Assembly (NCBI GenBank): GCA_025937035.1
Contig: JAICSG010000062.1
Span: forward strand, 1 to 11,649
DNA: 11,649 nucleotides
Reading direction: 5' to 3'
From: Thermoanaerobaculia bacterium
GTDB lineage: Bacteria > Acidobacteriota > Thermoanaerobaculia > Multivoradales > UBA5704
Shown here: positions 1 to 11,649 of the stretch, piece after piece
Numbering within the stretch: the stretch's first letter is position 1
Layout: each line of letters begins with the position of its first letter
Notes under the pieces: model-generated
Seen by the model: only the letters and a program-made list of their open reading frames with translations
Databases searched by the model: none
What the model was told of the DNA's origin: nothing
Made by a program: the position numbers and the translations under genes

Positions 1-1086
1 CAGGCGGTCCGGAGCGGCGATCTCCATCTTCAGATCCTTGGCGGTCAGGAGGGGCTCGTGGCTCTCGGCCACGGTGCGCACCAGGGCGTCGATCTCCACC
101 GGCTCCATCTCGGGCCTCTCGCGGCGGTTCTCCAGCCGGGCCAGCTCCAGCATGCGGTCCACGATGCGGGCGATCCGCTCGGCCTCGGTGCGGATGTTGG
201 CGAGGAAGCGGGCCTGCTGCTCGCGGGGCATCCCCTCCTGGAGGAGCTCCGCCGCGCCGCGGATGGCCGAGAGCGGGCTCTTCAATTCGTGGGTGAGGGT
301 CTGGACGTACTCCTCCGCGTATTGCCGCCCCTCCAGCGCCTCCTGCATGCGGCGCAGCGCCAGCCCCAGATCGGCGATCTCGGTGCTCCCGAGCCGGGGG
401 AAGGGCGGGTGCTTGCCGAGCCGGATGCCGTCCGCGTAGCGCGCCAGGCGGTCGATGGGACGGGTCAGCAGGTAGGACAGGATCAGGCTCAGCAGCGCCA
501 CGGCGCCGATGGTGAGGAGCCCCGCGCGGACGAAGGCCGGCCGGGCGAGCTGCAGGAAGGCGTCGATGCTGGCGGTGGGCTCGACCACGGTGAGGGCGCC
601 GACCACGCGGCCGTTCTGGCGGATCGGCGCGGCGACGTAGAGCGCGGTCGAGAACGGATCGTTGGGGTTCTGCACGGTGGCGCGGGCGCCATACTTTCCT
701 TCCAGGGTGTTCTTGACGTCATGGAACCGGCTGTAGTCCTGGCCCACCGCGCTGGGATGGCGCGTGTCGAGCACCACCTTTCCATTGGCGTCGGTGATGT
801 AGAGGTTGAGGTCCACGGCCGGTTTTTTGAGATCGTAGATCTGGGCGGACAGCTGCCGGGCATAGGCGCGGTCGAGCATCGCGTCGAGGCTGGCGTAGGT
901 GAAATCCGGCCGCGCCATCTGCTGCTCGACGAGGGTCGCGAGGAGGTTGGAGGAGTCGACCAGCGGCTCTTCCACGCTCTCCAGATAGCGTGTGCGGAGG
1001 GTCGTCCAGATCCAGTCGGTGGTGAAGTAGAGGCAGACCGCGAAGATGGTGAGGTAGAAGAGGAAGATGCGGAGGCCGAGCTTCAT
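1..1086 (-). CDS. creC: CreC-type sensor histidine kinase (3' end beyond left edge)
   Basis: This is an inner-membrane sensor kinase, expected to phosphorylate the CreB-type regulator encoded just before it. The first 362 residues are visible. They comprise a membrane segment (about 5-27), a periplasmic sensor domain, a second membrane segment (about 187-210), a HAMP-like linker and the dimerisation/phosphoacceptor helix with the H-box THELKSPL, phosphoacceptor His266. The periplasmic domain carries the run VGQDYSR followed by YGAR, QNP and YVAAPI, and the H-box continues into AIRGAAELL. These closely follow E. coli CreC as I remember it, so the subfamily call is firm. The ATP-binding domain should lie past the left edge (E. 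coli CreC is about 474 aa). The ATG start is five bases after the creB stop, so the two are almost certainly co-transcribed. In E. coli the next gene is creD, an inner-membrane protein; whether it follows here cannot be seen. Confidence 0.93.
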   Translation of the reverse strand, partial: MKLGLRIFLFYLTIFAVCLYFTTDWIWTTLRTRYLESVEEPLVDSSNLLATLVEQQMARPDFTYASLDAMLDRAYARQLSAQIYDLKKPAVDLNLYITDANGKVVLDTRHPSAVGQDYSRFHDVKNTLEGKYGARATVQNPNDPFSTALYVAAPIRQNGRVVGALTVVEPTASIDAFLQLARPAFVRAGLLTIGAVALLSLILSYLLTRPIDRLARYADGIRLGKHPPFPRLGSTEIADLGLALRRMQEALEGRQYAEEYVQTLTHELKSPLSAIRGAAELLQEGMPREQQARFLANIRTEAERIARIVDRMLELARLENRRERPEMEPVEIDALVRTVAESHEPLLTAKDLKMEIAAPDRL

Positions 1087-1091
1087 GGTCT

Positions 1092-1780
<689 letters not shown>

Positions 1781-1781
<1 letters not shown>

Positions 1782-2461
1782 CAAGGGTCTCCTGCTCGTC
1801 TCACCCTGAGCACCGCCCACCAGCCTCCCAGGAACAGCGCTGTGATCAGGGATACCATCATGGCATGCTCCGCGTACCGCGCGCCCGGGTGGCCGGTCAG
1901 GAGCGGCACCAGCAGGGTCATGCCGAGGTAGGCGCCGGCCACCAGAAGGCCTCCGGCGCGCCGGCCTCCGGTGAGCCGGTCGAGCAGGGTGTAGAGCCCC
2001 CAGAGGGCGCCCAGATAGATCAGGATGCCCAGGAGACGGTGCGCCTGGGCCGGGGTGAGGCCGGCGACGGGGCCGAGGCGGTAGAGCTCCACCGCGGCCA
2101 CGATGCGCAGGGTGTTGACGGCGAGGGTGGCGAGGTAGGCCCCGGCCAGCGAGCCCAGCCACCAGCCGAGCCGCGCCCGGGGGGAGCGCAGCCGGTGGAC
2201 GAAGCCGAGCACGGAGATGGTCAGCACCAGGATCAGGAAGTTCACCCCCGCGCAGGCCGGAGCGATGACGTACGAGCCGTCCGGCGACACCCAGCCGGCG
2301 GCGGAGTGGAAGGTGAGCGTCTCGCCGCGCAGCCAGCCCACGGCGCGGGCCGTCGGCGCGAGGATCCAGGAGAGATCCGCGGCCGAGGCCCGGCTGTAGG
2401 CCAGCTTCAGACCGTAGGCGGCGGCGAGCGCCGCCGCCCAGGAGATCCAGGGACGCCTCAT
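1781..2461 (-). CDS. short exosortase (XrtK-like?), transpeptidase-like membrane protease
   Basis: This is a 226-aa multi-pass inner-membrane protein of the exosortase/archaeosortase family, which cleaves C-terminal PEP-CTERM-type sorting signals after export. The three expected catalytic residues are present, each in or beside a membrane segment: Cys70 in PACAGVNF, Arg119 in NTLRIV and His141 in AHRLLGIL (counted from the ATG). There are about six or seven hydrophobic segments. It lacks the EpsI-like C-terminal domain of the long exosortases. The ATG start overlaps the stop of the VIT/VWA gene (TGATG), and a GTG one codon earlier is possible. It is most likely dedicated to the upstream gene's product, which carries a VPEP-type C-terminal signal. 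I suspect one of the small single-substrate subfamilies such as XrtK, but cannot assign the subfamily without a profile search. The family call itself is firm because of the triad and topology. Confidence 0.88.
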
Positions 2462-4485
2462 CACCGGCTCGCGCGCCGCGTCCGCATCCGCATCCGCGCC
2501 ACGGCGGCCAGGCCGAGGATCAGGGTGCCGAGGGCGATCAGCACCGGCAGCTCCGGCTCGGGGACGCCCACGGCGCTGTTCTCGACCCCCCGCGGCAGGG
2601 GCAGCGGCTGGTCGACGTTTTTCGCGTCGCCTTCCTGGTTCCGCACCTTCTCGTGGACCGCGATGAAGGAGGTGTAGGCGGTCAACAGCTCATATTTAAG
2701 CCCGAGCCCGGTCACCGCCTGACGGTTGGCCTCGTCGCGCTCCGCGCCGTAATCCGAGAGGCGGGCCACCCGCGCCCGCGCCCAGAGATAACGGAGCGCC
2801 TGGTTCTCCGCGGACGGCTTGGCGTCGGCGACGTCGAAAACCTTTTCAAATTTCCCGTCGCCGCCCATGCCGGTGACGCGGATCGTGCCGGAAGGCTTGC
2901 CCTTCCATTTGCCGAAGATCACCAGCGGACGGTCGGCGAACAGATCGGGGACCGACAGCGGCTCGACGTCGGAGGTCTGGAAATCCTCGGTCTCGACCCC
3001 CACGTGGGTGAGCACGGGGGATCTCACATAGTCCCGGAAACGCTTCGCCATCTCCCTGGCCTCGCCCGGCTCGATGACGATGAACGGCTCGCCCTGGCCG
3101 GCGTGGGCCATCCCTTCGATCAGGCCGCGGTTGACGGAAGACCCGATGCCGAAGGCGAACAGGTTGGAGCGGTTGAGCCGGGTGCGGATCTGCTCGCAAA
3201 TGCTGGCCTCCGCCTCCACGAAGCCGTCGGTGATCACGATCATCGTGCGCGAGACGCCCGCCGTCTCCGGCAGCGCCATGGCGCGGTCGAGGGCCGCGCC
3301 GAGCTCGGTCTCGCCGCCCCCCTGGGCGCTCTCGACCTCCGCGATCACCTGCGGGACGTTCTCCGGCGTGGCGGGCAGCGATTGCGGAGCGATCAATTTC
3401 GAGGCGCCGGAGAAGAGGAGCACGTTGAAGCGGTCGGTCGGCCTGAGGTTGCCGATCAGCTCGGTCATCAGCGTCTTCGCCGTATCGAGCGGGAAGCCGT
3501 GCATGGAGCCGGAGACGTCGAGCACGAAGATATATTCACGCTGCGGGATCTGGGCCGGCGCCACGCGCCTGGGCGGCTGCACCATCAACAGAAAGAAATT
3601 CTCGTCCTGGCCCGGCTGACCGGGCTGACCCGGATAGAGCAGAAGGCCGGTCTGCACCTGCTGCCCGGCCAGGCGGTAGCGCAGGATGTAGTCCCGGTTG
3701 CCGCCGTCCGTTTCGCGGGGATCGAGGCGGACCCTGGCCGTAGTGCCGTCCTCCCAGTCCACGTGCGTCTGGTGGGACGGAGTGAGGATCTCGTCGATGG
3801 GCATGCCGGCGGCGATGCGGGTCTCGATATTGAATTCATAGGCTGGCTTCTCCTTTTCGTGCAGGTAGGGGCTCTTCACCCAGCCGCTGCTCTCTTCCGC
3901 TTTCGATTCCGGCGCGTTCGAATAGCGGGGGCCGGCCACGGTGGGGTAGACGAATTCATAGATGCCCTCGGTGGGTACGAGGAGCTCGCTGTAGTGGAGC
4001 TCGACGCGGATCTCGTCCTGCGGCATGACGTTGGCCACGCTCATGCTGAAGACGTTGGCCCGCTGCTGCTCCAGCAGGGCCGCGCTCTTGCCCTCCGCCT
4101 TGGCAGCCTCGAATTCCTGTTTCGCCTGCTGCTTCTCGCGGATTTTGGCGCGGATGCGCTCGTTGCCCACCTGCAGAGTCATGCCGTGGACGGCGGCGCG
4201 GGTAGAGGCGGGAAAGACGTACCGCGCGTTCAGGGGGCGGCTCCCCTCGTTGCGATAGACCTGAGTGACGACCACGTCGGCGATCACGCCCGCGATGTGG
4301 ACGTCGGCCCTGGTCTCCTTGAGCGGGAGCTTGTCGACGGCGGGGTCACCATTCTCGACGAAGAAATACGGCGAAAGGGTGCGGTCCTGATCCTTGCCCT
4401 GGGCCGCGCGAGCGGGAGCTCCCGGGAGCGCGACCAGGAGCGCCAGCCCGAGAAACAGGAAACCTATCTTCCATGACCGTTTCAT
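2461..4485 (-). CDS. VIT and VWA domain protein with PEP-CTERM-like sorting signal
   Basis: This is a 674-aa exported protein. It has a Sec signal peptide (residues 1-27; basic MKR start, hydrophobic core, Ala-rich cleavage region ending ARA), a VIT domain (about 35-175, containing YFFVENGD, VYRNEG and ANVMPQDEI), and a VWA domain (about 317-490) with an intact MIDAS start D323-x-S-x-S and a later ITDGF. The C-terminus has a three-part signal: VPEPE at 641-645, a hydrophobic stretch (about 646-663) and an Arg-rich tail (RMRMRTRRASR). VIT plus VWA resembles inter-alpha-trypsin-inhibitor heavy chains and bacterial surface proteins thought to bind partners through metal-dependent adhesion; its ligand is unknown. 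The signal should be recognised by the exosortase encoded immediately downstream. The start is chosen because AAGGAGG lies five bases before this ATG and a signal peptide begins right there; the frame stays open 48 codons further up but that part looks non-coding. Confidence 0.92.
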   Translation of the reverse strand: MKRSWKIGFLFLGLALLVALPGAPARAAQGKDQDRTLSPYFFVENGDPAVDKLPLKETRADVHIAGVIADVVVTQVYRNEGSRPLNARYVFPASTRAAVHGMTLQVGNERIRAKIREKQQAKQEFEAAKAEGKSAALLEQQRANVFSMSVANVMPQDEIRVELHYSELLVPTEGIYEFVYPTVAGPRYSNAPESKAEESSGWVKSPYLHEKEKPAYEFNIETRIAAGMPIDEILTPSHQTHVDWEDGTTARVRLDPRETDGGNRDYILRYRLAGQQVQTGLLLYPGQPGQPGQDENFFLLMVQPPRRVAPAQIPQREYIFVLDVSGSMHGFPLDTAKTLMTELIGNLRPTDRFNVLLFSGASKLIAPQSLPATPENVPQVIAEVESAQGGGETELGAALDRAMALPETAGVSRTMIVITDGFVEAEASICEQIRTRLNRSNLFAFGIGSSVNRGLIEGMAHAGQGEPFIVIEPGEAREMAKRFRDYVRSPVLTHVGVETEDFQTSDVEPLSVPDLFADRPLVIFGKWKGKPSGTIRVTGMGGDGKFEKVFDVADAKPSAENQALRYLWARARVARLSDYGAERDEANRQAVTGLGLKYELLTAYTSFIAVHEKVRNQEGDAKNVDQPLPLPRGVENSAVGVPEPELPVLIALGTLILGLAAVARMRMRTRRASR

Positions 4486-4552: not shown

Positions 4553-4568
4553 ATGAACGGGTCGTGAA
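4553..4568 (-). promoter_or_regulatory. candidate CreB binding site (cre tag)
   Basis: The minus strand reads TTCAC, six bases (GACCCG), then TTCAT. The E. coli CreB site is TTCAC-N6-TTCAC, so this is a match in nine of ten fixed positions with the correct spacing. It lies 67 bases upstream of the VIT/VWA start codon, at the head of the operon that also encodes CreB and CreC. I do not see a convincing -10 element at the expected distance. A near match to ten fixed bases can arise by chance, so the call leans on its position. Confidence 0.5.
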
Positions 4569-4600
4569 GAATCGGGGAAAGATTGTGGCGGAGGAGCTCA

Positions 4601-4680: not shown

Positions 4681-6465
4681 TCAGACCAGCACCGAGTCGC
4701 TCGGCACAGTTTCCAGGGATGCGGGGGCCGCCTGGAGCAGCGGCAGCCGGACCACGAATTCGCTGCCGCACCCCGGGCCGTCGCTGTGGGCCTCGATGCT
4801 GCCGCCGTGCAGGTCGACGAGGGTGCGGACCAGCGTCAGGCCGATGCCGAGGCCGCCCCGGGCCTGCTCCCGGGAGTCTGGGGCCTGGATGAAGGGCTCG
4901 AAGATCCGCTCGCGCAGCTCCGGCGTCAACCCCACGCCGTCGTCGCGCACGCTCAGCCACAGGTCCGTCCCCTCCACGCGCGCGCTGAGTGAGATGTTGC
5001 CGTCGGGCCGGGTGTACTTGGCGGCATTGTGCAGGAGGTTGCCCACCACCTGCACCAGGCGCGTGGAATCGCCGGTCAGGGTGGTGGGCCCGGCGGGCAG
5101 GTCGAGGGTCAGGCGGTGTCCCCGTTCTTCGATCAGCGGGCGGACGAGCTCGACCGCCTGCTCGACGAGCGTGCCGAGCTCGACCACCGTGGTCTTGATC
5201 TCGATCTTCCCCTGGTTGATGCGGGCGATATCGAGCAGGTCGTCGACGAGCCGCGACATCCGCGCCGACTGGCGAGCCACGATCTCGCGCGTGCGGGGCA
5301 GGTACGCGGGGTCGTAATTGCTCAGGCGTATCAGCTCCGCTGCATTCACGATCGCCGCCAGCGGGTTGCGGAGCTCATGCCCGAGCATCGCCAGGAACTC
5401 GTTCTTGCGGCGGTCGATCTCGGCGAGCTGCTCGAGCCTCTGCTGGCGCTCCGCTTCCAGGCGCACCCGGTCGGTGACGTCGCGCGTGAAGCACCGGGTA
5501 TGGATGAACTTGCCGTTCTCGAACAGGACGTTGGAGTGGATCTGCACGTGCTTGAGCGAGCCGTCCCGACAGCGCAGCGTGGCCGTACAGTCGTAGAGCG
5601 CCTCGCCGCTCTTCAGCGTCTCCAGGATCCGTTGGATGGCTTCGCGGTCGGCGTGGAACTCGATGATGCTGTGGCCGATGTACTCTTCAGGCGAATAGCC
5701 GAGCATGTCGAGCTCGGCCTTGTTCGCCCACAGGATCGTGCCGTCGGCGCCGACCTTGTGCAGACCCTCGACGGCGTTCTCCAGAAAATCCGACAGCTCC
5801 CGCTCTCGTTCGCGCAGCGCCTGCTCGACCTGCCGGCGCCGGGCGACCTCGGTCTCCAGGGCGGCCGCCTTCTGCTGGAGCCTGGCGATCTGGCGCTGGA
5901 GCTCGTCCGGAATGGCGGTCCCGATGAAGCTCTCCGCGGGCCGCACCCCGGAGTGGACATCGCAGACCTGAAAGAAGAGGGGGCCCTGCTCCTCCTGGCC
6001 GAAATTCCGCATCGGGTAGGCGCACAGCAGGGAAAACGAGTGGGCTCGGAGAAGGCCGTTCCACAGCTCCTCCAGGTGAAGGGCGGCCTCCTGCTTGCCG
6101 TCCTCCCATAGCAGGGCCACCATCTCGCCGAAGGCGCGCATCGGCCGGTTCCCGTTCTGCGCCCGCTGGAGGAGATCCTCGATGATGGCGGTGAAGCGTT
6201 GCTCATCGGGCCAACCATCGACCATGAACCGCGAGAGCGTCTCGGCCGCGTCCAGGGCGATGCACTGTCCGTCGCACATTTCCAGCCGCTGTGCGAGCTC
6301 GTCGAGATGGGGCCGGGTCGCAATGACGATCCCAGCCTCTCCAGCCCGCAGGCCCACGCCAATGAATTCGGCCACCTGATCGATGAGGAAGGCGTCGTTT
6401 TCGTAGAGCTGGACCAGATGCTCGTGAGCCGAGGGGGAGCGCTGCATAGCAGAAGTGTAAGACAT
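4681..6465 (-). CDS. orphan soluble histidine kinase, MEDS-PAS-HisKA-HATPase
   Basis: This is a 594-aa predicted cytoplasmic sensor kinase with no membrane segment. An N-terminal MEDS-type domain (about 13-185, with HLVQLYEND and GEAGIVIATRPHL; the domain known from the DcmR regulator of methylotrophs) is followed by a coiled coil (about 187-225) and a PAS domain (about 225-335, with ILWANKAELDMLGYSPEEY). The kinase core has phosphoacceptor His363 in GHELRNPL, the N-box around Asn480, the G1 box DDGVG (508-512) and the G2 box GGLGIGL (537-543). All catalytic boxes are intact. No receiver domain or adjacent regulator is present, so its partner is unknown; PhoB and CreB, encoded on either side, are candidates by position only. 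The start is uncertain: no Shine-Dalgarno precedes this ATG, and the ATG at 6447 (six residues shorter) fits a possible promoter better. It begins 43 bases after the phoR stop. Confidence 0.9.
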   Translation of the reverse strand: MSYTSAMQRSPSAHEHLVQLYENDAFLIDQVAEFIGVGLRAGEAGIVIATRPHLDELAQRLEMCDGQCIALDAAETLSRFMVDGWPDEQRFTAIIEDLLQRAQNGNRPMRAFGEMVALLWEDGKQEAALHLEELWNGLLRAHSFSLLCAYPMRNFGQEEQGPLFFQVCDVHSGVRPAESFIGTAIPDELQRQIARLQQKAAALETEVARRRQVEQALRERERELSDFLENAVEGLHKVGADGTILWANKAELDMLGYSPEEYIGHSIIEFHADREAIQRILETLKSGEALYDCTATLRCRDGSLKHVQIHSNVLFENGKFIHTRCFTRDVTDRVRLEAERQQRLEQLAEIDRRKNEFLAMLGHELRNPLAAIVNAAELIRLSNYDPAYLPRTREIVARQSARMSRLVDDLLDIARINQGKIEIKTTVVELGTLVEQAVELVRPLIEERGHRLTLDLPAGPTTLTGDSTRLVQVVGNLLHNAAKYTRPDGNISLSARVEGTDLWLSVRDDGVGLTPELRERIFEPFIQAPDSREQARGGLGIGLTLVRTLVDLHGGSIEAHSDGPGCGSEFVVRLPLLQAAPASLETVPSDSVLV

Positions 6466-6508: not shown

Positions 6509-8269
<1,761 letters not shown>

Positions 8270-8274
8270 CGGCT

Positions 8275-8958
8275 TCAGGGCCTCAGACGGTAGCCGACGC
8301 CGATCACCGTCTCGACGCGGTCGGCCTCGGGACCCAGCTTGCGGCGCAGCCGCCGGATGTGGGTGTCCACGGTGCGGCTGTCGATGTCCTCGGCGTAGCC
8401 CCAGACGTCGGAGAGGAGGGTGCCGCGCGTCTGCACCCGGCCGGCCCGCTCCATGAGCAGCCGCAGCAGCCGGAGCTCGGTGGCGGTCAGCGCCACTTCC
8501 TTGCCACGCACCCGGAGCTGGTGGGCGGCCACGTCGAGCTGGATGCCGCCGATCTCCAGCTTGTCGCTGGGGACCTCCTCGGGCTGGAGGCGGCGCAGCA
8601 CCGCCTTGACCCGCAGCACCACCTCGCGGGGGCTGAACGGCTTGCTGATATAGTCGTCGGCCCCGAGCTCCAGACCCACGATGCGGTCCACCTCCTCGCC
8701 GCGAGCGGTGAGCATCACGATCGGGATCCGCGAGGTGGCGGCGTCCCGTTTGAGCAGCCGGGTCAGCTCCAGGCCGTCGACCCCGGGGAGCATGAGGTCG
8801 AGCAGGATCAGATCGGGGGCCTGCCGCCGCAGGGACTCGAGACCGCTGTCCCCGCGGTGGGCGACCTCCACGTCGAAGCCCTCCTTCTCCAGGTTGTACT
8901 CCAGCACCTCGGCGATGTCGGGCTCGTCCTCGATGAGCAGAATTCGTTCGCGTGCCAT
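8275..8958 (-). CDS. phoB: PhoB-type phosphate regulon response regulator
   Basis: This 227-aa OmpR/PhoB-family transcription factor has a receiver (about 1-122) with Glu10/Asp11, phosphoacceptor Asp54 in LLDLMLPG, Thr84 and Lys106 in KPFSPRE, and a winged-helix effector (about 132-226) with LTATELRLL, WGYAEDIDSRTVDTHIRRLRRKLG and the ending GVGYRL. The motifs SRTVDTHIRRLR and GVGYR fit PhoB well, and the neighbours phoR, ppx and ppk support the call. It would activate phosphate-starvation genes by binding Pho boxes, and two such boxes lie upstream of it. No Shine-Dalgarno sequence precedes the ATG (the preceding minus-strand bases are TTTTTGTCAC), and the leader would be about 240 bases if transcription starts next to the boxes. 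Confidence 0.93.
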   Translation of the reverse strand: MARERILLIEDEPDIAEVLEYNLEKEGFDVEVAHRGDSGLESLRRQAPDLILLDLMLPGVDGLELTRLLKRDAATSRIPIVMLTARGEEVDRIVGLELGADDYISKPFSPREVVLRVKAVLRRLQPEEVPSDKLEIGGIQLDVAAHQLRVRGKEVALTATELRLLRLLMERAGRVQTRGTLLSDVWGYAEDIDSRTVDTHIRRLRRKLGPEADRVETVIGVGYRLRP

Positions 8959-9006
8959 GTGACAAAAAGGCTACCACGCGTCTTCCACATCCAATGCGGA
9001 AAAACC

Positions 9007-9015
9007 TGTGGAAAA
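9007..9015 (-). promoter_or_regulatory. DnaA-box-like nonamer
   Basis: The minus strand reads TTTTCCACA, which fits the relaxed DnaA box TTWTNCACA. The same nonamer occurs on the plus strand at 9168-9176, and a one-mismatch version (TCTTCCACA) at 8981-8989. It is part of a 9-bp direct repeat, GGAAAAACC, at 8998-9006 and 9010-9018. Binding is not established. Confidence 0.25.
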
Positions 9016-9026
9016 ACCCCCTGAAA

Positions 9027-9057
9027 CCGGGACCAAAGGCCTGATTCCCGGGCCTTT
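9027..9057. repeat. overlapping alternative hairpins in the phoB leader
   Basis: AAAGGCC (9035-9041) pairs with GGCCTTT (9051-9057), giving a perfect 7-bp stem with a 9-base loop. CCGGGA (9027-9032) pairs with TCCCGG (9046-9051). The stems share position 9051 and interleave, so the two full stems cannot form together as a simple nested structure. They lie in the predicted 5' untranslated region of phoBR. No U-run follows directly. Confidence 0.4.
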
Positions 9058-9167
9058 CCACGCTTTGACCAGAGTCATGTGCAATGGCGCGTAAACGACT
9101 GATTTCATTGTACTTTCGCCTGGGTTTCTCCTCGCCGGCGGACGCTTGACGGATCATCCATGGCGTG

Positions 9168-9176
9168 TTTTCCACA
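9168..9176 (+). promoter_or_regulatory. DnaA-box-like nonamer
   Basis: TTTTCCACA on the plus strand, identical to the minus-strand nonamer at 9007-9015 and in inverted orientation to it. It fits TTWTNCACA. The call is by pattern only. Confidence 0.25.
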
Positions 9177-9206
9177 GATTCGGAGTGAAATCCCTGCAAA
9201 AGTCTT

Positions 9207-9247
9207 GTTAAGTCTTTGTGACGGAGGATGTTACTGGAGTGTGACAG
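9207..9247 (-). promoter_or_regulatory. two tandem Pho boxes upstream of phoBR
   Basis: Read on the minus strand, box 1 is CTGTCAC, ACTC, CAGTAAC (9247-9230) and box 2 is CCGTCAC, AAAG, ACTTAAC (9224-9207), with five bases between. Each is two heptamers 11 bp apart, the geometry of the PhoB site (CTGTCAT, four bases, CTGTCAC-like). The first heptamer is one base off consensus and the others are progressively weaker. They lie about 250 bases upstream of phoB and point toward it. PhoB autoregulation is normal for this family. I cannot place a convincing -10 downstream of box 2. Confidence 0.65.
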
Positions 9248-9269
9248 CGGTTGTCAGAGGTGCTTTTGC

Positions 9270-9296
9270 GTAAGAAGTTCTTACAAGGGGTTGTAA
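9270..9296. repeat. two overlapping small inverted repeats after ppx
   Basis: GTAAGAA (9270-9276) and TTCTTAC (9278-9284) form a perfect 15-bp odd palindrome. TTACAA (9281-9286) and TTGTAA (9291-9296) form a second stem with a GGGG loop; the two share 9281-9284. They lie 21 to 48 bases after the ppx stop. No U-run follows in the ppx direction, so a terminator role is not supported; an operator or 3'-end structure is possible. Confidence 0.4.
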
Positions 9297-9317
9297 AAAG
9301 GACAGACATTTCCGGAC

Positions 9318-10868
9318 TTACTCCGCCACCTCCAACCCCTGGCGCAGGCGCAGGTCGCGGTCGAAGACCTTGGCGAAGAGGCGGGAGTGCTCGCGGGCGG
9401 CTTCGAGCTCCAGGTCGACCGAGTAGCGGGAGAGGACCTCCAGGGTGGCCTTGCGGCCGCGGATGGCGCAGTAGATCTCCTCGACGCGCGAGGCGTGGGT
9501 GCGGTCGAGGGCGTCGGCCACGCGCAGCAGGGCGGCGAGCTTGCGGATGGTGCGCTGCTGCCAGGGCTTGAGGAGGGCCATGTTGGGGTGGCTCGCCTTG
9601 GGGGCCGAGCCGCGGTGATAGCGGGCGACGTTGGCGATGATCTCGATCTCCCGCTGGTCGAAGGCGTCGAGCACCGCGTTGGTGATCAGGTAGTAAGCGT
9701 GCTTGTGGTGCCCCTTGTAGTGGATGGAGTAGCCGATGTCGTGGAGCAGGGCGGCGTACTCCAGCCATTCGCGCTCGCGGGCCCCCAGGCCGTGGAGGGA
9801 GGCGGTGAGGTCGAACAGGCGCAGGGCCAGGCGGGCGGTCTGCTGGTTGTGCCGGTAGACCGTCTCAGAGCGGCCGGCGAGCTGCAGCACCTGGCGGCGG
9901 CGCAGATCCTCGGGCTCGGCCGCCGGGGGGATCGGCTGGCCCAGGGCGGCCAGCACCAGCCCCTCGCGCAGGGCGCGGTCGGAGACCTGGAAGCGGTCCA
10001 CCCCGGCGTGGGCCACCAGGGCCTGGAGGAGCACGGCGCCGGCCAGCAGGCTGTCGGAGCGCGGGCCGCCCACGGGCGGAAGGTCGGCGATCTGCCGCCG
10101 CTTGAGGGGGCGGAGCCGCTCGACCAGGGCCGCCAGATCGCGGGTCCGCACCTCGCGGGCGCCGGAGACCTCCTTCCAGGGGCGGTCGGCGAAGTAGTCG
10201 ATCAGGTCGGCGCAGCAGACGGCGGTGCCGGAGGTGGCGACCAGCCGCTCGACTGGCCCCTTGGGCACCCGCTCGGCGAGCTTCCTGTCGATCCTCCGGC
10301 GGAGCTTGTCGAGAGACGCGGGGCTCGCCGGATCGCCCGCGAGATCGGCGGCGCAGCGCAGGGAGCCGAGGGTTCGGCTCACCACCTGGCCGAGCTCGCC
10401 GGCCTGACTGGTGATCCACTCGGTGCTCCCCCCGCCCACGTCGACGATCACGGCGGTGTCCGGCCCCAGGTCGACCACCTCGCGCACGGCGCGGAAGATG
10501 AGCTGCCCCTCCTCGACGCCGGTGAGAAGGCGGACGTCGAGGCCGGTCAGGGCCTTGACCCGGGCCAGGAAGTCGGCGCCGTTGGCCGATTCGCGCACCG
10601 CGCTGGTGGCGACCGCCACCACCCGCTCGGCGCCGCGGAGGCGGGCGATGGTGGTCATCTTGGCCAGCGCCTCCAGGCCGTCCTGCATCGCCTCCTCGGA
10701 GAGGGCGCCGTCGCTTAAGGACGGCTTGCCCAGGCGGACCATCTCGCGCTCGCGTCCCAGCAGCCGGTAGCCCCCGTTGGGCGCCGCCTCGGCCACCACC
10801 ATATGGATGGAGTTCGAGCCGATGTCGATCGCCGCCAGGCGCGCGGTGTCCTCCACGGTAGCGCTCAC
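9318..10868 (-). CDS. ppx: exopolyphosphatase / guanosine pentaphosphate phosphohydrolase
   Basis: This 516-aa protein of the Ppx/GppA family removes terminal phosphate from polyphosphate and, in some members, converts pppGpp to ppGpp; sequence alone does not separate the two. An N-terminal ASKHA-fold phosphatase domain (about 10-310) has AIDIGSNSIHMVV (phosphate-binding loop), the catalytic acidic pair Glu119/Glu120 in GVEEGQLI and the second loop VDVGGGSTEW (142-151). A C-terminal HD-type domain (about 325-510) has HD at 376-377 in LLHDIGYSIHYKGHHKH. The length fits the long Ppx class (E. coli Ppx 513 aa). The GTG start at 10868 begins MSATVEDTARLAAIDIGS; there is no clear Shine-Dalgarno, and a second GTG lies four codons on. 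It is divergent from ppk, whereas enterobacterial ppk and ppx are co-directional. Confidence 0.93.
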   Translation of the reverse strand: MSATVEDTARLAAIDIGSNSIHMVVAEAAPNGGYRLLGREREMVRLGKPSLSDGALSEEAMQDGLEALAKMTTIARLRGAERVVAVATSAVRESANGADFLARVKALTGLDVRLLTGVEEGQLIFRAVREVVDLGPDTAVIVDVGGGSTEWITSQAGELGQVVSRTLGSLRCAADLAGDPASPASLDKLRRRIDRKLAERVPKGPVERLVATSGTAVCCADLIDYFADRPWKEVSGAREVRTRDLAALVERLRPLKRRQIADLPPVGGPRSDSLLAGAVLLQALVAHAGVDRFQVSDRALREGLVLAALGQPIPPAAEPEDLRRRQVLQLAGRSETVYRHNQQTARLALRLFDLTASLHGLGAREREWLEYAALLHDIGYSIHYKGHHKHAYYLITNAVLDAFDQREIEIIANVARYHRGSAPKASHPNMALLKPWQQRTIRKLAALLRVADALDRTHASRVEEIYCAIRGRKATLEVLSRYSVDLELEAAREHSRLFAKVFDRDLRLRQGLEVAE

Positions 10869-10874
10869 GGGGTC

Positions 10875-10880
10875 ATTCTA
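10875..10880 (-). promoter_or_regulatory. possible -10 element of ppx
   Basis: The minus strand reads TAGAAT, one base from TATAAT, six bases before the ppx GTG. It would give a leaderless message, consistent with the missing Shine-Dalgarno. No good -35 is seen at 16-18 bp. Confidence 0.25.
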
Positions 10881-10887
10881 GACGGTA

Positions 10888-10900
10888 CCCGCCCGGCGGG
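10888..10900. repeat. GC-only inverted repeat between ppx and ppk
   Basis: CCCGCC and GGCGGG flank a single C, a perfect 13-bp odd palindrome in the divergent ppx-ppk promoter region. It could be an operator, but in such GC-rich DNA a palindrome of this length may be chance. Confidence 0.3.
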
Positions 10901-10917
10901 ACGGGAAACCGGGGGAG

Positions 10918-10935
10918 CTGTCACACCGCGGTCAC
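10918..10935 (+). promoter_or_regulatory. Pho box upstream of ppk
   Basis: The plus strand reads CTGTCAC, ACCG, CGGTCAC: two heptamers 11 bp apart, facing ppk. The first matches the PhoB half site at six or seven positions and the second is CTGTCAC with one or two differences. CAAGAT at 10947-10952 lies 11 bases past the box, about where a PhoB-dependent -10 would sit, but it matches TATAAT at only three of six. Transcription would then start near 10959. Confidence 0.6.
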
Positions 10936-10988
10936 GCGAGATGTGGCAAGATTTCGCCCGTGGCCGAGCCGAATCGAGTCGAGACGCT

Positions 10989-10994
10989 GGAGAG
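10989..10994 (+). promoter_or_regulatory. ribosome binding site favouring the second ppk start
   Basis: GGAGAG lies four bases before the GTG at 10999. The earlier in-frame GTG at 10960 has no comparable sequence. Confidence 0.5.
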
Positions 10995-10998
10995 ACCC

Positions 10999-11649
10999 GT
11001 GGCCGAGGGGGAGCCGCTCTTCCTCAACCGGGAGCTCTCCTGGCTGGAGTTCAACGCGCGGGTGCTGCACGAGGCGGAGGACCCCGACAACCCGCTGCTC
11101 GAGCGGCTGAAGTTCATCGCCATCTTCGACTCCAACCTCGACGAGTTCTTCATGAAGCGGGTGGGGGGCCTGAAGCAGCAGATCGCCAGCAACGTGCGCG
11201 ACCTCGGCGCGGACGGCGAGGGGACCCCCCGCCAGCAGCTCGCCCAGATCAACGCCTCCGTGCGGCCGACGGTGGCCCGCCAGCGCCGGCTGCTCAATCA
11301 GGAGCTGCTCCCTCAGCTGCGCGAGCACGGTCTGGAGATCCTCTCCTGGGACGAGCTAAGGACAAGCGAGCGCCGCCACCTCTGCGAGGAATTCGACCGC
11401 CTCATCTTCCCCGTGCTGACGCCGCTGGCGGTCGATCCGGCCCATCCGTTCCCGTTCATCTCGAACGTCAGCCTGTCGCTGGCGGTGGCGGTGCGGGCGC
11501 CGGGGGAAGGGCAGCTCCCGCGCTTCGCCCGGGTCAAGGCGCCGCACATCCTGCCGCGCTGGGTGCAGGTGCCCAAGACCCTGCGCTACGTGCCCCTGGA
11601 GGAGCTGATCGCCCACAACCTCGACCGGCTCTTCCCCGGCATGGAGATC
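10999..11649 (+). CDS. ppk: polyphosphate kinase, 5' part (runs off right edge)
   Basis: This enzyme reversibly makes inorganic polyphosphate from the gamma phosphate of ATP. The first 217 residues are visible: the N-terminal domain (LFLNRELSWLEFNARVLHEA, then ERLKFIAIFDSNLDEFFMKRV) and the beginning of the head domain (IFPVLTPLAVDPAHPFPFISN). These are hallmark Ppk1 segments. The phosphorylated histidine and catalytic domains lie past the edge (Ppk1 is usually about 690-720 aa). Start: GTG at 10999 has a good Shine-Dalgarno and gives the usual short lead before LFLNREL; GTG at 10960, in frame and in the same 12-base context, would add 13 residues. The upstream Pho box suggests induction by phosphate starvation through PhoB, encoded nearby. 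Confidence 0.95.
   Translation, partial: MAEGEPLFLNRELSWLEFNARVLHEAEDPDNPLLERLKFIAIFDSNLDEFFMKRVGGLKQQIASNVRDLGADGEGTPRQQLAQINASVRPTVARQRRLLNQELLPQLREHGLEILSWDELRTSERRHLCEEFDRLIFPVLTPLAVDPAHPFPFISNVSLSLAVAVRAPGEGQLPRFARVKAPHILPRWVQVPKTLRYVPLEELIAHNLDRLFPGMEI

Follow-up and report, generated by a model that had tools for sequence, protein, structure and literature searches.

An exosortase K–VIT/VWA operon with adjoining creBC genes and a candidate CreB operator in a soil acidobacterium

Exosortases often act on many substrates, and a sorting enzyme with a single target has been termed a dedicated system; the sections of the 2011 account that deal with this subject also describe one vault/VWA family carrying GlyGly-CTERM, LPXTG or PEP-CTERM tails, the latter two together with a cognate sortase or exosortase (PMC3237569). 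For the two-component system CreBC, a CreB site of the form TTCAC-N6-TTCAC lies upstream of creD, according to the part of the literature concerned with that promoter (PMC4689548). Here we analysed an entire contig of 11,649 nucleotides (C645, hereafter the window) from the genome of a soil acidobacterium (5.69 Mb in 1254 contigs, 93.75% complete). Its minus strand encodes, in the order of transcription, a VIT/VWA surface protein, exosortase K (XrtK), the response regulator CreB and the sensor kinase CreC. We consider it likely that the locus as a whole represents a dedicated XrtK–VIT/VWA system placed under direct CreB control through a phased site, with the VIT/VWA gene standing in the place of creD.

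The first-pass annotation of this DNA had assigned the four genes to one transcription unit, and the genes, their two TGATG overlaps and the gap of five bases were confirmed on the minus strand. The alternative XrtK start codon, ATG 2461, overlaps the VIT/VWA stop codon as TGATG, a second TGATG joins the exosortase and CreB genes, and the CreB and CreC genes are 5 bases apart. In the class survey, a genome of the same genus (G454) showed XrtK-CreB-CreC in this order at a contig start, with a full-length CreC of 476 amino acids (contig L002, which is evidently identical with record L032 of that genome). Nine metagenome contigs, recognised by their identical lengths among the best 120 matches of each of three protein searches, suggest joint occurrence of XrtK, VIT/VWA and CreC. 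Given L002 and these contigs, the operon order is no one-off assembly artefact.

The window exosortase scored 110 bits against the exosortase K model TIGR04287 (cut-off 55) and 30.7 bits against TIGR04178 (cut-off 23), and fell under the cut-off of the general Pfam exosortase model (20.6 vs. 25.7). Its close relatives are already exosortase K in public annotation; the single named relative returned by the XrtK scan is an Acidobacteria gp7 AA5 metagenome-assembled genome (MAG). A survey of 396 genomes of the phylum gave 15 matches to TIGR04287 at E 0.001, ten of them over the cut-off, and matches were found in 2 of the 148 genomes of the class survey. At all ten over-cut-off loci (L018-L026 and the window) a VIT/VWA gene lies directly upstream of XrtK, the neighbours being 51-58% identical to the window's VIT/VWA protein, and in the midpoint-rooted tree the 15 VIT/VWA rows linked to XrtK fall into a single group with 100/99 support. 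Of the five sub-cut-off matches, four (L027, L029, L030, L031) have no VIT/VWA or CreBC match beside them and were excluded from the XrtK set; the remaining one, L028, lies at a contig end, is a fragment of XrtK and is accompanied by CreBC.

Alignment of 21 C-terminal tails revealed an invariant EPE followed by a hydrophobic stretch and basic residues, that is, a PEP-CTERM-like architecture, and [PS]EPE was found near the C-terminus in 115 of 120 listed homologues, the remaining five having PEPG or PEPD. When a profile of the 21 tails was run against ten XrtK genomes (G454 was left out, and 150 of 224 candidates were scored in G291), each genome gave one convincing protein, encoded next to XrtK and with E 8e-12 to 3e-8; the next-best match in any of them had E 0.045. 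The VPEP signal described in the first-pass annotation is present in the window protein, whose tail reads VPEPEL, but the general PEP-CTERM model TIGR02595 does not match it. A check of the source genome for other PEP-CTERM proteins, following the suggestion made there to look for further VPEP C-termini, gave six TIGR02595 matches at E up to 10, none over the cut-off and none in the window. An exosortase serving many substrates was rejected for this genome on its single exosortase match, the lack of any over-cut-off PEP-CTERM protein and the one tail-bearing protein. The pairing of the enzyme with one substrate, as originally proposed, is thus well supported as a conserved XrtK–VIT/VWA partnership, given the adjoining genes at 10/10 XrtK loci and the one significant tail-bearing protein per genome in ten.

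Conservation of Cys, Arg and His is an exosortase motif. Residues C71, R120 and H142 of XrtK (numbered from GTG 2464) are invariant both in 15 and in 30 aligned sequences and constitute the predicted active site. The XrtK structure model is helical with a mean pLDDT of 84. A fold search against solved structures returned no match at E 0.001 or better, and the active-site assignment therefore rests on conservation. Beyond the part matched by TIGR04287, a Glu-His pair (E199-H200) is nearly invariant in the 15 and invariant in the 30 aligned sequences; judged by conservation, it could be a second functional site. A search for XrtK on plasmids gave no match. XrtK probably cuts the C-terminal sorting tail of its VIT/VWA neighbour.

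We found VIT (PF08487) and VWA domains in the window's putative target, and 41 of the 396 genomes encode a VIT/VWA protein at least 50% identical to it. Thirty of these genomes were inspected; the other 11 are all from one genus (g55). Eleven of the 30 proteins go with XrtK, one of them (G137) split over two contigs. Another three end in a TPEPETW tail and are followed by an XrtQ-related exosortase (154-163 bits; cut-off 270); in L078, the sole one of the three scanned, this tail was matched by the Pfam PEP-CTERM model. Two proteins are incomplete at contig ends, one is fused to an outer-membrane barrel, and 13 have, by eye, a tail-less extra C-terminal stretch, for which no Pfam match was obtained in the two examples scanned (L074 and L081, among L073-L089). 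Barrel fusions and tail-less forms alike attach, by eye, after a QPLPLPxGVxDxAVG-like hinge. The barrel fusions themselves are an acidobacterial VIT/VWA protein joined to an outer-membrane barrel (L090:3428-8383) and a fusion to a SusC/RagA type barrel on a Bacteroidota plasmid (L040:5932-10626), each joined after the QPLPLP/QPLAMP hinge that also precedes the sorting tails. By its C-terminal sequences, then, the VIT/VWA family is one that uses several kinds of anchor. A small gene after the XrtQ-like exosortase in L077 (9186-9695), which has no NCBIfam match, possibly encodes an exosortase partner protein.

Anchoring of the VIT/VWA protein appears flexible, since the same subfamily includes homologues that have no tail (13 of them with an uncut end) as well as the barrel fusions of L090 and L040. 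These forms lend some weight to an explanation in which XrtK releases the VIT/VWA protein by simple proteolysis, or partners a membrane-anchored VIT/VWA protein, and the VIT/VWA protein is itself the sensor input of CreC; proteins adjoining sensor kinases often serve as kinase inputs. Such a role is nevertheless very improbable in our judgement, as the tail is retained at 10/10 over-cut-off XrtK loci, as for a sorting substrate.

Both regulators belong to the Cre families. The window CreB scored 328 against NF008296 (cut-off 273), and CreC, though incomplete at the contig end, scored 394 against NF008312 (cut-off 356), compared with 589 and 566 for CreC of L026 and L077. CreC is rare, occurring in 19 of the 396 phylum genomes, and in six of the 19 it accompanies a VIT/VWA-exosortase cluster, either of the XrtK type (G000, which is the source genome, G092 and G137, the last with XrtK and VIT/VWA at the ends of two separate contigs) or of the XrtQ-like type (G030, G043, G068). 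The neighbourhood survey proposed in the first-pass annotation hence gave a divided answer: VIT/VWA co-occurs with XrtK at 10/10 loci, but CreBC adjoins only 2/10, plus two contig-cut loci. Likewise, the dedicated sensor claimed there is present beside the window operon but missing at 8/10 XrtK loci, and CreBC is also found beside VIT/VWA with another exosortase. We therefore rejected CreBC as a regulator belonging to XrtK itself: linked to VIT/VWA with two exosortase types and missing at most XrtK loci, CreBC follows the VIT/VWA protein and not XrtK. L023 has a CreB-like regulator (44%) at a distance of about 11 kb from XrtK, which was not counted, that genome being without a CreC match.

At the remaining 13 CreC loci, creD follows creC (within about 1.2 kb) in 11; another has a divergent CreD-like gene, and the last is truncated by its contig. 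No CreD match was obtained in the source genome, G092 or G137; creD does not follow creC in L002 and the window ends within creC, so the canonical creBCD arrangement is not found at this locus. In the CreC tree, XrtK-linked and XrtQ-linked sequences form two separate groups, and both fall within a supported set of nine that includes two CreD-linked sequences; the link may therefore have arisen once or twice.

We scanned these loci for the published CreB site, with E. coli K-12, which carries a perfect copy before creD, as positive control. The site is located between creC and creD in 8/11 acidobacterial loci (seven perfect). As it precedes creD at these ordinary loci, creD's place has apparently been taken by VIT/VWA where the site lies before that gene. 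Upstream of the window's VIT/VWA gene, the 196-bp gap contains TTCCC-N6-TTCAC-N6-TTCAT, that is, two overlapping sites of one mismatch each, and no further site at up to one mismatch was found in the window. The whole 5.69-Mb genome has 73 such sites (23 for a reversed control pattern), which gives an expectation of about 0.0025 for a gap of 196 bp; the window pair is the only one among them with a spacing of 11 bp. The XrtQ-like loci L077, L078 and L079 show a perfect site and another one-mismatch site between creC and VIT/VWA. Altogether, sites at up to one mismatch are present in 4/6 CreBC-linked VIT/VWA promoters (window, L077-L079) vs. 1/24 others, where it lies on the opposite strand 259 bp away. 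Phased half-site triples number six in 894 kb of strand (30 loci); VIT/VWA promoters linked to CreBC account for three of these, one in the window, one in L077 and a degenerate one in G137. CreBC control of the operon, earlier proposed from position alone, thereby gains independent support from predicted binding sites. That CreBC is wired through a conserved operator to VIT/VWA in creD's place, with an exchangeable sorting enzyme (XrtK or XrtQ-like), is a broader proposal which we hold with slightly more belief than doubt.

Several observations weigh against CreB control and against creD replacement. Eight of the ten over-cut-off XrtK loci (L018-L025) lack a neighbouring CreBC, and three of the 11 creC-creD loci lack the site. 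The perfect sites of L077-L079 are not independent, because all three loci come from one genus. L026, with XrtK and CreBC, has a two-mismatch site only, and such sites also occur upstream of unlinked VIT/VWA genes; in G137 there is only the degenerate triple. The other three of the six phased triples lie elsewhere, one of them in the window at 9104, and the triple measure was chosen after the window and L077 had been seen. At up to two mismatches the scan of the window is unremarkable (7 matches vs. 3.5 expected; 13 of 200 shuffles reach 7). As for CreD, G454 keeps it on another contig, and each of the three XrtQ-like genomes likewise has, on a different contig, a divergent CreD-like gene scoring 31-35 bits against a cut-off of 23; the absence of CreD from the source genome is no proof, since this is a 93.75%-complete MAG.

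Part of this evidence would fit CreBC being a passenger that a few lineages inherited beside the XrtK–VIT/VWA pair and that has no regulatory role there, with the tag-like site arising by chance: most XrtK loci lack CreBC, L026 has no one-mismatch site, and the unlinked CreD or CreD-like gene in G454 and the three XrtQ-like genomes could be the true CreB target. We regard a passenger role as unlikely. Judged by the TGATG overlap and the five-base gap, creBC seems to be transcribed together with the pair. CreBC is found repeatedly next to VIT/VWA genes, with exosortases of two kinds, and a one-mismatch site is hardly expected in the gap by chance, while a second lineage has perfect sites.

Under direct CreB control of a dedicated sorting system, which we favour, the VIT/VWA protein would be exported, its EPE-helix-Arg tail keeping it in the inner membrane. 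XrtK would cut this tail there through the predicted Cys-Arg-His site, and the cleaved protein may then either be released or become attached at a more outward position in the envelope. The membrane sensor CreC would activate CreB by phosphorylation, and we infer that phosphorylated CreB binds the phased TTCAC array before VIT/VWA and activates the entire operon, creB and creC included; VIT/VWA would thus sit where creD stands in ordinary CreBC loci. The signal may be one from the envelope, by analogy with part of the published CreBC work. With the same wiring, CreBC could instead be mainly metabolic here, the operon serving biofilm formation or adhesion in response to carbon status. The E. 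coli system has been described as responsive to carbon source and oxygen in the portion of the literature treating its physiology (PMC3962086), but CreBC of Pseudomonas and Aeromonas responds to penicillin-binding-protein loss in the corresponding sections of other reports (PMC4689548, PMC2654508), and we find the metabolic variant rather doubtful.

Table 1. Coordinates of the operon genes and associated features in the window.
Feature	Coordinates	Strand	Remarks
VIT/VWA surface protein	2461..4485	-	674 aa; VPEPEL-helix-Arg tail at the C-terminus; by eye, a signal peptide and a DxSGS...T...D metal site
Sorting tail of VIT/VWA protein	2464..2565	-	EPE invariant (21 aligned tails), hydrophobic stretch, basic end
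Exosortase K (XrtK)	1781..2464 from GTG, or 1781-2461 from ATG	-	226 aa from ATG 2461
CreB response regulator	1092..1781	-	TGATG overlap with exosortase gene; NF008296
CreC sensor kinase	1..1086	-	incomplete at contig start; 5-base gap after CreB; NF008312
Putative CreB operator	4553..4579	-	TTCCC-N6-TTCAC-N6-TTCAT; 3 half-sites phased 11 bp; 68-94 bp upstream of VIT/VWA start

Directly upstream of the operon and on the same strand, a gene at 4681-6465 encodes a histidine kinase with MEDS sensory and PAS domains. The adjoining region 6509-11649 is a phosphate/polyphosphate cluster with a PAS histidine kinase and an OmpR-type regulator (PhoR/PhoB-like by eye), a Ppx/GppA phosphatase and a divergent polyphosphate kinase. 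The triple at 9104-9130 on the plus strand, TTCAT-N6-TTCGC-N6-TTCTC, is degenerate, lies in the gap before the OmpR-type regulator and may be due to chance.

The closest described arrangement is the proteobacterial dedicated sortase system (TIGR03784 with TIGR03788; TIGR03785/TIGR03787). It shares with the window a VIT/VWA target of the same superfamily immediately followed by its own sorting enzyme, the target and sortase genes share a four-base overlap in Novosphingobium L042, and NCBIfam names a two-component pair for that system too. The enzyme class is unrelated, however: the two proteobacterial VIT/VWA relatives examined are each followed by a class GN sortase, whereas the adjacent enzyme in the window is an exosortase. 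The window VIT/VWA protein scored 404 bits against TIGR03788, under the cut-off of 551.65, and on this score and the enzyme class we rejected membership in the proteobacterial system. Its regulators differ as well, with 138 for the window CreB against TIGR03787 (cut-off 335.7), and 58.6 for the incomplete window CreC and 130 for that of L026 against TIGR03785 (cut-off 612). Within exosortase K, the window enzyme scores twice the family cut-off, and linkage to CreBC is confined to some members.

Among the matches listed in searches of the open-licence literature, none was a paper on XrtK, none described a sensor that controls an exosortase, and none joined CreBC with exosortases, PEP-CTERM or VIT/VWA; the two matches for CreC and PEP-CTERM were only an author name in a reference list. 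If our reading is true, CreBC, an envelope/metabolic sensor, would in Acidobacteriota have cell-surface protein sorting among its outputs, and the one-enzyme, one-substrate operon with its recognisable operator would be a small system joining substrate, enzyme and control. The apparent tie of CreBC to a surface protein in some bacteria also hints at an envelope job of CreBC and of creD, whose function is unsettled.

Compared with canonical creBCD of E. coli, Pseudomonas and Stenotrophomonas, the locus shares the CreB and CreC families and the TTCAC-N6-TTCAC site, but the gene behind the site is creD there and a VIT/VWA-exosortase unit here, in a genome that gave no CreD match. The sections on the VIT/VWA family in PMC3237569 do not mention CreBC, an operator or XrtK, which the window system adds to that account; the barrel fusions and tail-less forms described above are a further difference. 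The named enzyme family, dedicated systems and tail exchange were thus already known, and what is new is the putative CreBC operator link together with the apparent replacement of creD.

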